This document shows positions 576-30,455 of a DNA stretch of 64,000 nt, in pieces. The notes beneath the pieces were generated by a model. That model did no database searches. It was not told where the DNA came from and was given only the letters and a program-made list of their open reading frames with translations. The stretch lies in NCBI GenBank assembly GCA_002631855.1, contig NTLF01000004.1, forward strand, positions 1-64,000, in the 5' to 3' direction. Made by a program: the position numbers and the translations under genes. Within the stretch, counting starts at the first letter, position 1, and each line of letters starts with the position of its first letter. The stretch comes from Zunongwangia sp. ESRF-bin46 (GTDB taxonomy: Bacteria; Bacteroidota; Bacteroidia; Flavobacteriales; Flavobacteriaceae).

Positions 576-911
576 ATGAAAAAACTATCAATAGTGCCTA
601 TTTTGGCTTTAATGCTGTTTTCTTTTCAGGCCAAATCACAAAGTAAGGAGGTTACAAATCAAGTTGTGGAAGTAGCTTCAAAGAAACATAATGCAATCAC
701 GGTGAAATTTAAAATTACAGGCATTACTTGTGCTGGATGTTCCAATGCTATTTATAATGCATTAAAGGAAGTAGATGGTGTTTTGGAACATTCGGTTGAA
801 TACCCTGGAGATATTGCTGTTATTGAGTTTGATGGTTCAAAAACAAGTATCAAAGCCCTAAAACTTATCATAGAAAAGAAAGGGTTTAAGGCCGAAGTAA
901 TTAAAGGGTAG
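576..911 (+). CDS. Secreted heavy-metal-associated (HMA/MerP-like) protein
   Basis: Signal peptide then ITGITCAGCSNAIYNALKEVDGV HMA motif. Confidence 0.8.
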   Translation: MKKLSIVPILALMLFSFQAKSQSKEVTNQVVEVASKKHNAITVKFKITGITCAGCSNAIYNALKEVDGVLEHSVEYPGDIAVIEFDGSKTSIKALKLIIEKKGFKAEVIKG

Positions 912-946
912 GTCTAATTTTTAATAAGTAAACAGTACCGATTTCA

Positions 947-2653
947 ATGAAAAATACAGCTAAAATGAAAATCAAAATGCCTCAAAATAGAGAAATCATT
1001 ACATTGGAAATCGAGGGTATGACCTGTGAAGGTTGTGCAACACATATCGAAAAGGATATGAACGCAACTGAAGGAGTTTTAAGTTCCACAGTTAACCACG
1101 AAACCGGAAAAGGCGAATTTAATTTTGATGCTGATAAGATGAGTAAGGCAAATGTAATAGATGCTATAAACAGCGTTGGTGATTATTCGGTTGTAAATAA
1201 TGTCGACGAGGAAGAGGTTTCCGCTGTAAATTCCAAAGGCCAAAATCAATTCGATTTAATAATTATTGGTGGTGGTTCAGCTGCATTTTCAGCAGCCATT
1301 AAAGCTGAAGGTTTAGGGCTCACAACACTTATGGTAAATGCAGGATTAGATTTTGGTGGCACTTGCGTAAATGTGGGTTGTGTACCGTCTAAAAACCTTA
1401 TTCGGGCTGCCGAAACGGTACGTCTCGCTACGCATTCCAATTTTAAGGGTATAAAACCTAAAGGAGCAGACATTGATTTTACACAAACCATAAAAGATAA
1501 AAAAGCATTGGTTGCTTCACTTCAGCAACAAAAATATATGGATGTGGTAAGTGATTTTGAAAACCTGATAATGCGTACAGGTTGGGCTGAACTTGTTGAT
1601 AATAAAACAATCCTTGTGGATGGAAAAGACACCTACACAGCAACCAACATTCTAATGGCAACAGGAGCAACTACCAATATTCCAAATATTGAAGGACTGA
1701 ATGAGGTTGGTTATTTAACCAATGTGACCTTGTTCGATTTAGAGGAAAAACCTGAAAGTTTGACCATTATGGGAGCTGGTTATATTGGTTTGGAAATTGC
1801 GATGGCTTACAACAGATTGGGTGTAAAAGTATGTATCATTGAATTCACCGACAGGCCATTACGCAGTCAAACAAAAGATATTACAGATGTTTTGGTAGAA
1901 CAAATGAAAAGTGAAGGGATTGAAATCCTTCCAAACTTTAGAGCGTTTAAATTTGAAAAGAAAGGTAACGATACAATTATTCATTGTAATTGTCCTGATG
2001 GTTCCACAACTCAAATTGTTGAAAAAGGACATATTGTGGTGGCTACAGGGACGAAGCCTAACACCTCTAAATTAGGGCTTGAGAATATTGGCCTAAAGTT
2101 AACAGAAAGCGGCCATATTATTGTAAATGAAAAAATGGAAACCAATATTTCCAATATTTATGCAGCAGGAGATGTCACCATTACACCGGCATTTGTTTAT
2201 ACAGCAGCAACCGAAGGTAGTACAGCAGTGAACAATGCGTTTTCATCAACAAAAACAAGTATTGATTATTCATCATTACCTTGGGTAGTATTTACAGACC
2301 CTCAAATCGCAGGAGCAGGTATAGATGAAATTGAAGCAGAAAAAAAGGGAATTCCTTTTGAAGTCAGTAAACTTGATTTAATTTACGTTCCAAGAGCCTT
2401 GGCAGCTCAAGATACCAGAGGGTTCATAAAACTGATACGCAACACTGAAACCGATAAATTAATAGGTGCAAGAGTAGTTGCACCTGAAGGTGGTGAACTG
2501 ATACAACAATTGAGTATGGCTATTAAATTTGGAATCACTGTAAAAGATTTAGCAGAAAGCTTTTATCCATATTTAACTTTAGGAGAATCTGTTAAACTGG
2601 CAGCGATTACCTTTGGGAAAGATGTTTCCAAATTAAGTTGCTGCGCGAGTTAA
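947..2653 (+). CDS. merA: Mercury(II) reductase with N-terminal HMA domain
   Basis: GMTCEGC HMA, FAD motif GGGSAAFSAAIKA, redox site GGTCVNVGCVPSK, C-terminal Cys pair (SCCAS). Confidence 0.93.
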   Translation: MKNTAKMKIKMPQNREIITLEIEGMTCEGCATHIEKDMNATEGVLSSTVNHETGKGEFNFDADKMSKANVIDAINSVGDYSVVNNVDEEEVSAVNSKGQNQFDLIIIGGGSAAFSAAIKAEGLGLTTLMVNAGLDFGGTCVNVGCVPSKNLIRAAETVRLATHSNFKGIKPKGADIDFTQTIKDKKALVASLQQQKYMDVVSDFENLIMRTGWAELVDNKTILVDGKDTYTATNILMATGATTNIPNIEGLNEVGYLTNVTLFDLEEKPESLTIMGAGYIGLEIAMAYNRLGVKVCIIEFTDRPLRSQTKDITDVLVEQMKSEGIEILPNFRAFKFEKKGNDTIIHCNCPDGSTTQIVEKGHIVVATGTKPNTSKLGLENIGLKLTESGHIIVNEKMETNISNIYAAGDVTITPAFVYTAATEGSTAVNNAFSSTKTSIDYSSLPWVVFTDPQIAGAGIDEIEAEKKGIPFEVSKLDLIYVPRALAAQDTRGFIKLIRNTETDKLIGARVVAPEGGELIQQLSMAIKFGITVKDLAESFYPYLTLGESVKLAAITFGKDVSKLSCCAS

Positions 2654-2662
2654 GTTTGAGTT

Positions 2663-3049
2663 ATGAAAGGAGAACAGCATAAATTACCTACTGATTTAAT
2701 CTTGGATATTAAATCCAGATTAAAAACTTTGAGTGGTCAATTAAACGGCATTGTTAAAATGCTTGATGAAGGAAAGGACCCCGAGCAAATCAACATTCAG
2801 TTCAAATCTATTGATAAAGGCATTCAAAAAGCACATTACTTACTGCTGGATGAAGTCTATCGAAAAGCGCTTGCTATTGGAATTGTAAAGGCTGTGGACT
2901 CTTGCCCAGGCAATTGTGGCAATGAAGATAAAATTGAATATTTAAAAAGTGAATTCCCTAACTTGGAATTATCTGATTTGACCAATCGCTTAAAAGAAAT
3001 CCAAACCATTGAAACCAGATTAAAAGACTACAACGAAAAAAAAGGTTAA
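2663..3049 (+). CDS. CsoR/RcnR-like (DUF156) metal-sensing transcriptional regulator
   Basis: Helical RLKTLSGQLNGIVKMLDEGKDPEQI pattern typical of the family; located in metal operon. Confidence 0.65.
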   Translation: MKGEQHKLPTDLILDIKSRLKTLSGQLNGIVKMLDEGKDPEQINIQFKSIDKGIQKAHYLLLDEVYRKALAIGIVKAVDSCPGNCGNEDKIEYLKSEFPNLELSDLTNRLKEIQTIETRLKDYNEKKG

Positions 3050-3117
3050 AAAATTTTGGTGACCCCCTACCTCACGTTCTCATCTTTGTTCCATTATTAA
3101 TTCAAACTTTAAATAAG

Positions 3118-3387
3118 ATGAAACGACAAATCGAGATTTTTACAGCAGGTTGCCCAGTATGCGAGCCTGTGGTGCAATTAGTAAATGAGACAGCAGGAAA
3201 GGACTGCGAAATCACACTTCATAATCTGTCCGAGCAATGCGAAAGTAAAATCTGTGTTTCAAAAATGAAGGAATATGGGGTTACAAGAGTTCCCGCCATT
3301 GCTGTGGACGGAAAACTACTGAATTGCTGCACCAAAATCGAAATCACAAAAGAGGATTTGGTAAACGCGGGAATAGGAAGTTGTTAG
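3118..3387 (+). CDS. Cys-rich thioredoxin/glutaredoxin-like protein
   Basis: IEIFTAGCPVCEPVV (CxxC) and VTRVPAIAVDGK cis-Pro motif. Confidence 0.75.
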   Translation: MKRQIEIFTAGCPVCEPVVQLVNETAGKDCEITLHNLSEQCESKICVSKMKEYGVTRVPAIAVDGKLLNCCTKIEITKEDLVNAGIGSC

Positions 3388-26804: not shown

Positions 26805-26833
26805 AACACCTCTTTTTACAGAGGTGTTTTTTT
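26805..26833 (+). terminator. Rho-independent terminator
   Basis: AACACCTCT-tttttac-AGAGGTGTT then T tract. Confidence 0.7.
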
Positions 26834-26878: not shown

Positions 26879-26886
26879 TACATTTG
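26879..26886 (+). promoter_or_regulatory. Candidate flavobacterial -7 element TACATTTG
   Basis: Matches TAnnTTTG consensus; -33 element not clear. Confidence 0.4.
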
Positions 26887-26889
26887 CTG

Positions 26890-27080
26890 CGCATTTAGCT
26901 GAACAATTGAACCGTGTTTCTGTGTTTGGGTTTTTGAAGATTAGGAAGTCATATTCAAAAACAGGTTGCCAGGCAACCAGCCAAAATTTAAAGCTAGCTT
27001 CCGCTCTACCCTTAGAACCTACAACAGGTTTCTCACAACGTTTGGCCTACTGGCTTAACCCTATCCGTATTTGAAATTAT
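26890..27080 (+). ncRNA. Candidate structured RNA (no family assigned)
   Basis: No ORF; 9-bp hairpin 26930-26938/26954-26962; nested helices 26964-26972/27050-27060 and 26980-26985/27041-27046; inner hairpin 27016-27020/27026-27030. Confidence 0.45.
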
Positions 27081-27162
27081 CGTTAATTTCTTGTTATATC
27101 ACTCATTTTAAGAGTATTTCAAATAATTGATTTATAATTTTCATGTTCAAACTTCATAAAAA

Positions 27163-28563
27163 ATGAATACTAAATATATTGATCTTATTGATCAAACTTA
27201 TTATTTTCCACAGGAAGAGTTTACTTTAAACGAAAACAAAACACTTAATTTTCACGATATTGACTTAATGAAGTTGGTTTCAGAATACGGAGCACCTTTA
27301 AAGTTTACCTATCTTCCTAAAATTTCAGATAATATACAACGCGCCAAAAAGTGGTTTGGCAATGCTATTGAAAAACATAAGTATCAAGGTAATTACAATT
27401 ATTGTTATTGTACTAAAAGTTCTCACTTTAAACACGTGTTACATGAGGCGTTGAAAAATGATGTCCATATTGAAACCTCATCGGCTTTCGATATTAATAT
27501 TGTTGAAAATTTAAAAGCGGAAGGAAAAATCAACGACAATACCTATGTGATCTGCAACGGTTTTAAGCGGGAGCAATACATCCTGAACATTGCGCGATTA
27601 ATCAACGAAGGCCATAAAAACTGTATTCCTGTAATCGATAATTATGAAGAAATCGGGTTGCTTTCCGAACAAATTGATGGCAATTACAAAGTAGGGATTA
27701 GAATCGCTTCGGAAGAAGAACCAAAGTTTGAATTTTACACCTCTCGTTTAGGAATTGGTTATAAAAACATTGTTCCTTTTTACGAAAAACAGATTAAGGA
27801 CAACAAGCAGGTTGAACTTAAAATGCTTCACTTTTTCATTAACACTGGTATTCGCGACAATGCTTATTACTGGAACGAATTGGTTAAGTGTTTAAACGTG
27901 TACACCAAACTGAAAAAAGTTTGCCCAACATTAGATAGCTTAAATATTGGCGGTGGGTTTCCTATAAAAAACTCATTGGCTTTTGAGTACGATTATCAAT
28001 ATATGATTGATGAAATAATCAACCAAATAAATATCACTTGTGCAGAAGCCGATGTGCCTGTACCTAATATTTTTACAGAATTTGGTAGCTTTACGGTAGG
28101 AGAAAGTGGCGGTGCTATTTATGAGGTTTTATACCAAAAACAACAAAACGATCGTGAAAAGTGGAATATGATTAATTCTTCTTTTATTACTACTTTGCCC
28201 GATACGTGGGCTATTAGCAAACGTTTTATCATGCTGGCCATAAACCGCTGGAATGATGAATACGAACGCGTGTTACTAGGTGGTTTGACTTGTGATAGCG
28301 ATGATTATTACAACAGCGAGCAACATATGAACGCTATTTATCTACCCAAATTTAAAAAAGAAAAACCGTTGTATATCGGCTTTTTCAACACGGGAGCATA
28401 TCAAGAAACCATTGGTGGGTTTGGTGGATTACAACACTGTTTAATTCCTTCGCCAAAACATATATTAATTGATAAAGACGAAGATGGAAACATCTCAAGC
28501 AAAATATTTTCACAACAACAAACAAGCGAGCAATTGCTAAACATTTTAGGTTATGAGCACTAA
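27163..28563 (+). CDS. speA: Arginine decarboxylase, PLP-dependent
   Basis: YCTKSSHFKHVL PLP-Lys region, LNIGGGFPIKNS; followed by agmatinase. Confidence 0.85.
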   Translation: MNTKYIDLIDQTYYFPQEEFTLNENKTLNFHDIDLMKLVSEYGAPLKFTYLPKISDNIQRAKKWFGNAIEKHKYQGNYNYCYCTKSSHFKHVLHEALKNDVHIETSSAFDINIVENLKAEGKINDNTYVICNGFKREQYILNIARLINEGHKNCIPVIDNYEEIGLLSEQIDGNYKVGIRIASEEEPKFEFYTSRLGIGYKNIVPFYEKQIKDNKQVELKMLHFFINTGIRDNAYYWNELVKCLNVYTKLKKVCPTLDSLNIGGGFPIKNSLAFEYDYQYMIDEIINQINITCAEADVPVPNIFTEFGSFTVGESGGAIYEVLYQKQQNDREKWNMINSSFITTLPDTWAISKRFIMLAINRWNDEYERVLLGGLTCDSDDYYNSEQHMNAIYLPKFKKEKPLYIGFFNTGAYQETIGGFGGLQHCLIPSPKHILIDKDEDGNISSKIFSQQQTSEQLLNILGYEH

Positions 28564-29488
28564 AACGTACGCCGGAATCCCGCAGAAATACGCGGCTCTG
28601 GAAACTTCAAAAATTGTATTAATCCCAGTTCCTTACGATGGTACCAGTACCTGGCAAAAAGGAGCCGATAAAGGGCCTGAAGCTTTTTTACACGCTTCAG
28701 AAAATATGGAATTGTACGATATTGAAACCGAAACCGAAGTTTACAAACAAGGTATTTACCTAAGCGAACCTATTACTGAAAACGCTTCACCTGAAGCAAT
28801 GGTAGAAGCGGTTCATAAACAAACAAAAGATTATATTCTTCGGAATAAATTTGTAACGGTTTTTGGTGGCGAACATAGTATTTCTATTGGTACAATTCGT
28901 GCCTTTAACGAATGTTTTGACGATTTAACCGTACTTCATATCGATGCGCACGCCGACCTTCGGAAAGAGTATGACGGTTCTTCTTGTAATCACGCTTGTG
29001 CAGTCTATGAAGCCAGCCAAACGACCAATTTAGTGCAAGTAGGTGTTCGTAGTATGGACGTTGCTGAAACAACGGTAATGGACCGTGAAAAAACGTGGTT
29101 TGCTCACGAAATGGCAACCGATGAATATTGGATGGACAATGTAATTGAAGCGCTAGGTGAAAAAGTATTTATTACGTTCGATCTAGATGCTTTCGATCCT
29201 TCTATTTTACCTTCAACCGGAACACCAGAACCTGGCGGATTGTTTTTCTACGAAACCATGGAGTTTTTAAAACAAGTATTTGCCGAACGCAATGTAGTTG
29301 GGTTTGATATTGTAGAACTATGCCCAAACCCAGCAGAGAAATCTTCCGACTTTTTAGCTGCTAAATTATATTACAAAATGTTGAGCTACAAGTTTGAAGG
29401 GATTGATGGAGAAGACGAATTTGAAAGCAATTTCACAGATTCAAAAAAAGGAATTTCAAAATTTAACAACAACGAAGATGAGTACTAA
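28553..29488 (+). CDS. speB: Agmatinase (ureohydrolase)
   Basis: GGEHSIS, HIDAHADLR, TFDLDAFDPS motifs. Confidence 0.9.
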   Translation: MSTKTYAGIPQKYAALETSKIVLIPVPYDGTSTWQKGADKGPEAFLHASENMELYDIETETEVYKQGIYLSEPITENASPEAMVEAVHKQTKDYILRNKFVTVFGGEHSISIGTIRAFNECFDDLTVLHIDAHADLRKEYDGSSCNHACAVYEASQTTNLVQVGVRSMDVAETTVMDREKTWFAHEMATDEYWMDNVIEALGEKVFITFDLDAFDPSILPSTGTPEPGGLFFYETMEFLKQVFAERNVVGFDIVELCPNPAEKSSDFLAAKLYYKMLSYKFEGIDGEDEFESNFTDSKKGISKFNNNEDEY

Positions 29489-30455
29489 TAAAGGAGCAAT
29501 TTCAGAATTTATTCAAAAATATTATTTGCACTTCAACGCTGCAGCTTTAGTAGATGCCGCAAAAGGCTACGAAGAGCAGTTGAATAGTGGTTCAAAAATA
29601 TTGGTGTCCTTGGCTGGAGCTATGAGTACAGCGGAATTAGGTAAAATATTTGCCGAAATGATCCGCCAAGATAAAGTGCATATCATTTCATGTACTGGTG
29701 CAAACCTAGAAGAAGATATTATGAATTTAGTGGCCCACAGTCACTATAAACGAGTACCTAACTACCGTGATTTAACCCCAAAAGATGAATGGGAATTGTT
29801 GGAAAAAGGACTGAATCGGGTTACCGATACGTGTATTCCTGAAGAGGAAGCTTTCAGAAGAATACAGGAACACATCGTAAAAATCTGGAAAGAAGCTGAA
29901 GCCAATGGCGAACGCTATTTACCGCACGAATATATGTACAAACTACTGTTGAGTGGCGTTTTAGAAGAACATTATGAAATCGATTTGAAAGATTCGTGGA
30001 TGTACGCTGCCGCAGAGAAAAACCTTCCTATTGTTTGCCCAGGTTGGGAAGACAGCACGATGGGGAACATTTTTGCGAGCTATGTTCTAAAAGGTGAGCT
30101 GAAAGCTTCAACCATAAAAAGTGGTATTGAATATATGACCTTTTTGGCAGATTGGTACACTGATAATTCAGAAAAAGGGATTGGTTTCTTTCAAATTGGA
30201 GGCGGTATTGCTGGCGATTTCCCAATTTGTGTAGTACCGATGTTGTATCAAGATATGGAACGCACCGATACGCCTTTCTGGAGTTATTTTTGTCAGATTT
30301 CAGATTCGACAACAAGCTACGGAAGCTATTCAGGTGCTGTCCCTAATGAAAAAATTACGTGGGGAAAACTGGATATTGACACACCAAAATTCATCATAGA
30401 AAGTGACGCTACCATCGTCGCACCTTTAATTTTTGCATATCTGCTAGATATGTAG
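29478..30455 (+). CDS. Deoxyhypusine synthase-like protein
   Basis: ISCTGANLEEDIMNL; C-terminal PNEKITWGKLDID retains the catalytic-Lys context; ATG 29478 overlaps speB end. Confidence 0.85.
   Translation: MSTNKGAISEFIQKYYLHFNAAALVDAAKGYEEQLNSGSKILVSLAGAMSTAELGKIFAEMIRQDKVHIISCTGANLEEDIMNLVAHSHYKRVPNYRDLTPKDEWELLEKGLNRVTDTCIPEEEAFRRIQEHIVKIWKEAEANGERYLPHEYMYKLLLSGVLEEHYEIDLKDSWMYAAAEKNLPIVCPGWEDSTMGNIFASYVLKGELKASTIKSGIEYMTFLADWYTDNSEKGIGFFQIGGGIAGDFPICVVPMLYQDMERTDTPFWSYFCQISDSTTSYGSYSGAVPNEKITWGKLDIDTPKFIIESDATIVAPLIFAYLLDM

Follow-up and report, generated by a model that had tools for sequence, protein, structure and literature searches.

A conserved leader reading frame with an embedded pseudoknotted RNA junction before speA in Flavobacteriaceae, a candidate cis-regulator of polyamine synthesis

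In the TnaC leader peptide of E. coli a penultimate arginine stands before a proline and a UGA stop codon, and it is at this point that RF2 is blocked (PMC8429421). In Salmonella, translation of orf34 keeps Rho from terminating transcription and opens up a structure that covers the start of speF (PMC6386406). Nearer to the organisms of interest, structured 5' regions and leader-peptide attenuation have been proposed for amino-acid operons of Flavobacterium psychrophilum, in a report whose main text names no speA (PMC9723704).

The locus described here lies in a 64,000 nucleotide stretch of Zunongwangia sp. ESRF-bin46 (contig NTLF01000004.1), the whole of which is referred to as the window and whose closest named locus is that of an uncultured Marixanthomonas. 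It is preceded by a pseudouridine-synthase gene and that gene's terminator and followed by an operon of speA, agmatinase and a deoxyhypusine-synthase-like (dhs-like) gene, with these features:

26805..26828, + strand: intrinsic terminator of the upstream pseudouridine-synthase gene
26879..26886, + strand: TACATTTG, candidate -7 element of the leader transcript, assigned by sequence; a TTTG element is similarly placed in most relatives
26907..27074, + strand: leader ORF, TTG start, 55 codons and TGA, (M)NRVSVFGFLKIRKSYSKTGCQATSQNLKLASALPLEPTTGFSQRLAYWLNPIRI; start codon in 55/55 homologues, 3' part under purifying selection
27163..28563, + strand: speA-like PLP decarboxylase, probably an arginine decarboxylase, putatively regulated by the leader
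28553..29488, + strand: agmatinase, the operon gene after speA
29478..30455, + strand: deoxyhypusine-synthase-like gene, same operon as speA

Both the terminator and the TACATTTG element had been noticed in the original prediction and are present, the leader transcript would begin near 26891, and TANNTTTG taken alone is not enriched in the window (107 occurrences, 99 by chance). The speA product matches solved arginine decarboxylases; its score against TIGR01273 is 152 bits, far below the NCBIfam arginine decarboxylase threshold of 624 bits, and because of this we infer the substrate from the family and from the adjoining agmatinase gene.

The stretch before speA had been labelled non-coding, which is wrong because the ORF from TTG 26907 to TGA 27074 spans it. 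A start codon (ATG, TTG or GTG) is found at this one position, six codons before the first helix of the RNA described below, in all 55 homologues, and as it occurs in every one of them only there, TTG 26907 replaces GTG 26922 as the leader start. The 90 complete cases have an open frame of 54-60 codons, with its stop lying 58-205 nt before speA where this was measured. Between close pairs the 3' part of the leader has a pN/pS of 0.22 and is therefore read as protein; pS is 0.091 in the structured codons, against 0.301 elsewhere in the leader and 0.453 in speA, so that synonymous divergence in the structured codons is about one fifth of that in speA (the speA of one locus in this comparison, L015, is apparently broken into two pieces, which inflates mainly speA pN). 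From these comparisons it follows that the bases of the structured codons are constrained twice, as peptide and as RNA. The leader matches nothing in Pfam up to E = 1, PF10940 included, and holds no run of a single codon. This last observation bears on classical attenuation, in which amino-acid codons are counted and an intrinsic terminator is formed: such attenuation has a precedent in the proposal for flavobacterial amino-acid operons (PMC9723704), but with no single-codon run in the leader and no intrinsic terminator found between leader and speA when the window was scanned, we regard it as very improbable.

The sequences for comparison came from 80 named speA loci of Flavobacteriaceae and seven genomes of the window's genus, of which 55 leaders can be aligned from the start codon to the end of the element, 115 nt, with zero indels. 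Judged from this alignment, the leader RNA is a three-way junction of P1, P2 and a local P3, in which the P2 loop forms a pseudoknot with the 3' side and a closing helix, PA, reaches back into the 5' UTR:

26896..26900, + strand: PA 5' strand UAGCU, in the 5' UTR, partner 26992-26996, 95.5% of cells paired
26925..26929, + strand: P1 5' strand, partner 26981-26985
26930..26938, + strand: P2 5' strand, partner 26954-26962, 8/9 pairs changed on both sides
26944..26949, + strand: pseudoknot 5' strand GGAAGU, in the P2 loop, partner 26997-27002, 99.4% of cells paired
26954..26962, + strand: P2 3' strand
26964..26969, + strand: P3 5' strand GGUUGC, partner 26973-26978, 6/6 pairs changed on both sides
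26973..26978, + strand: P3 3' strand GCAACC
26981..26985, + strand: P1 3' strand
26992..26996, + strand: PA 3' strand AGCUA
26997..27002, + strand: pseudoknot 3' strand GCUUCC

Across 54 distinct rows 94.2% of the cells of the consensus structure are paired, and 19 of its 31 pairs have changed on both sides; the cells so changed number 114, against 32 +/- 5 in shuffled and at most 42 in slid controls, and the score reaches 0.278, with a maximum of 0.109 for slid partners. P1 is UUUGG/CCAAA in the window and UUCGG/CCGAA in most relatives, whilst the pseudoknot occurs among them as AGAAGU/ACUUCU and GAAAGU/ACUUUC. A covariance model built without the pseudoknot gave 23 matches in further regions, many of them divergent, and in the resulting alignment, the weakest rows of which may be chance, the structure scored 0.370 against at most 0.171 slid, four of the five PA pairs had changed on both sides, and the pseudoknot, having been left out of the fitting, had 83% of its cells paired, its first pair also appearing as UA, AU and CG. 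The folding energy of the window sequence alone is no better than that of shuffles (z 0.13 and -0.72), and hence the case for an RNA structure is a comparative one. That energy is also what would speak for chance pairing in a functionless intergenic region, a reading refuted by the covariation, the conservation and the distribution and left with practically no probability.

The original prediction of a structured RNA upstream of speA is thus borne out in Flavobacteriaceae leaders, the covariation check on homologous speA-upstream regions having been run with a strong result, and its 9-bp hairpin at 26930-26938/26954-26962 is the conserved P2. Its remaining helices are not conserved in relatives. 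The one proposed between 26964-26972 and 27050-27060 can pair in the window sequence, but only 4-6 of its nine pairs can form in three relatives (L018, L020 and L022), where the 5' bases of 26964-26972 pair locally with 26973-26978, as P3, with compensatory changes; likewise 26980-26985 can pair with 27041-27046 in the window, but 26981-26985 forms the 3' side of P1 and has its partner at 26925-26929. A non-coding RNA of ~190 nt finds no support: a conserved leader ORF runs through the structure, which occupies its first ~33 codons. No RNA family had been named for it, and rightly so, as Rfam gave no match at gathering or permissive thresholds and no credible sub-threshold match in the window. 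What is found is a conserved, covarying structure in a 5' leader, as is characteristic of the riboswitch class, with ligand binding by it putative.

The covariance model detects the element in 121 of 251 Flavobacteriaceae genomes, and in the loci examined it stands directly before speA. Sampling the order and the phylum again brought up matches from Flavobacteriaceae alone, under strict filters that may miss distant forms. One match (G502, E = 0.005), itself from a member of the Flavobacteriaceae, fell in an apparently unrelated coding region and was rejected on its sequence. No second copy of the element was found in the window's own genome. Three other genomes do carry a second copy, before a gene for a small protein of ~100 residues (L127:3839-3953, L128:4058-4167 and L129:3577-3687, all on the - strand). 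The product of this gene is signal-peptide-like and of unassigned function (DGYEDGTYYFTD), and relatives of the gene are often found directly behind the speA operon; in L127 two genes lie behind the second copy (743-3177, - strand), one for a glutathione-synthetase-like ATP-grasp protein and one of 475 aa that has no Pfam match. Second copies that precede another gene end in UAA or UAG: that of L128 keeps the RNA with the ORF broken, and another ends ..IPVRI. In one genus (G025, G255) speA was not detected though the element is present, and here the leader has lost its usual end and retains its first half, together with the RNA. The element of this genus (L184:5949-6063, - strand; L185:2532-2646, + strand) precedes a gene for a ~92-aa protein (VDYQKLN), which in L129 comes after the dhs-like member of the speA operon.

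The end of the leader is conserved in its own right, and in the window reads:

27066..27074, + strand: Arg-Ile-UGA, conserved putative arrest end

Among the leaders the last three residues are I/F/L, then R/Q (or M/L/I), then I/V, with the third-last being I, F or L in 90/90 and the last I or V in 87/90. The stop codon is UGA in 51/55, against 28/358 (8%) among background ORFs, that is the long ORFs of the same speA loci, and in 14/17 of the divergent relatives. There are exceptions, a few leaders having other end residues or stops such as the UAA of one Arenibacter. The same ending recurs where the RNA is absent: in 40 speA upstream regions from Flavobacteriaceae genomes without the element, 14 contain an ORF with such an ending and nine of these have UGA, where shuffles expect 0.39 and 0.11, and in additional Flavobacterium species all eight upstream regions have it (..ANIRV or SNIRV; 0.07 in shuffles). 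The Flavobacterium leaders (L274-L281, L237) form a 58-59-aa family of their own with these two endings. In speA upstream regions of other families the ending occurred in 1/32, which is near the shuffle expectation of 0.35. Since RNA-less relatives often share the LRI/IRV ending whilst their N-termini are mostly unrelated to that of the window leader, the leader end looks like the wider feature, to which the pseudoknotted junction would be an addition in part of the family, or of which it would be a survivor there. Conserved C-terminal residues and a conserved identity of the stop codon are two characteristics of the termination-arrest class, with ligand-dependent arrest putative.

Two other explanations have to be weighed against this pattern. 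The ORF might encode a small protein with a function of its own, such as regulating SpeA, with the RNA only tuning its synthesis or the stability of the mRNA; selection on the ORF at the amino-acid level is what such a protein would show. However, it has no Pfam match, and its last residues and stop are conserved even where unrelated N-termini share them. A conserved end behind a variable N-terminus is typical of cis-acting leader peptides and not of a folded protein, and we consider this explanation quite unlikely. The junction might instead be a metabolite riboswitch for polyamine, agmatine or arginine that controls ribosome entry at the leader start, the peptide mattering only through coupling of its translation to that of speA. 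The compact junction and pseudoknot, the PA helix closing onto the transcript 5' end and the low synonymous divergence would all agree with this, as would the second copy in L128, which has retained its RNA in spite of a broken ORF; but it leaves unexplained the conserved C-terminus, the preference for UGA and the RNA-less leaders ending in LRI or IRV, and in Arenibacter there are leaders in which the peptide end has been kept and no RNA can be recognised. A riboswitch acting in this way is rather unlikely.

Behind the leader stop a further structure may form:

27073..27141, + strand: predicted imperfect stem-loop, its 5' arm beginning at the leader stop and its 3' arm ending 21 nt before speA

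The 16 nt after the leader stop have 8.5 expected pairs with the speA start region against 3.8 when shuffled (Wilcoxon p 4e-8), where p-values are descriptive because the sequences share ancestry and independence is thereby overstated. The excess of pairing is concentrated in the first ~12 nt past the stop, and it is absent from some speA loci, namely the Flagellimonas group, L045/L046 and L052. The predicted stem fits with being opened by a ribosome that rests at the leader stop.

Taken together, the comparisons make it fairly probable that the leader is a cis-regulator of the speA polyamine operon which combines an arrest-type peptide with an RNA junction gating the start. Transcription from a promoter at about 26879 would give an mRNA that opens with the leader ORF, and given a signal, for which arginine, agmatine and polyamine are candidates, a nascent end of the form [I/F/L]-[R/Q]-[I/V] would slow or block release at UGA. 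The ribosome held at the leader stop would then cover the 5' arm of the downstream stem, the start region of speA would be left open, or Rho blocked, and speA would be expressed; without arrest the stem would form and speA expression would be low. By analogy this would be a cis-acting switch of the TnaC and SpeFL kind, in which an arrested ribosome at the leader stop controls speA. The RNA junction encloses the leader start codon, connecting that codon with the transcript's 5' end, and most likely gates how often the leader is translated. Leader peptide and the structure of its own mRNA would thus together probably switch flavobacterial polyamine synthesis. More tentatively, and with rather little confidence, one may picture two sensors on the same nucleotides, a ligand-binding pseudoknotted RNA gating initiation and an arrest peptide sensing a second signal at UGA, which would jointly control entry into polyamine synthesis in Flavobacteriaceae.

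To our knowledge no cis-regulator of polyamine synthesis has been described in Bacteroidota, and a literature search for such a regulator, or for a known speA leader in flavobacteria, found none; the leader is a candidate for this role that allows precise and cheap tests. It also contributes an RNA family that Rfam lacks and offers a natural case of a single sequence under two constraints, those of a leader peptide and those of a pseudoknotted RNA. The Arg/Gln-Ile-UGA end could be used to test how arrest at termination evolves when the N-terminus can be exchanged.

The orphan cis-regulatory motifs and riboswitches of Bacteroidetes in Rfam resemble the speA leader RNA in having a compact, covarying junction and pseudoknot before a metabolic operon, but the leader RNA matches none of these families and sits inside a translated ORF. 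With TnaC the leader shares the UGA stop, the penultimate arginine and a candidate termination arrest (PMC8429421); unlike TnaC, it is longer, contains an embedded structured RNA and has no known Trp motif. The resemblance to SpeFL/ORF34 of enterobacteria lies in a short ORF near the 5' end before a decarboxylase gene of the polyamine pathway and in mRNA structure around the decarboxylase start, and in Salmonella the stop of orf34 is also UGA, according to the sections of that study drawn on here, in which no conserved pseudoknotted junction inside orf34 is encountered (PMC6386406). On its sequence, however, the flavobacterial leader falls outside the SpeFL family: the peptide is unrelated and does not match PF10940, and the enzyme and the phylum are different ones, SpeFL/ORF34 preceding the ornithine decarboxylase gene speF whereas the flavobacterial leader precedes a speA-like gene with its agmatinase.
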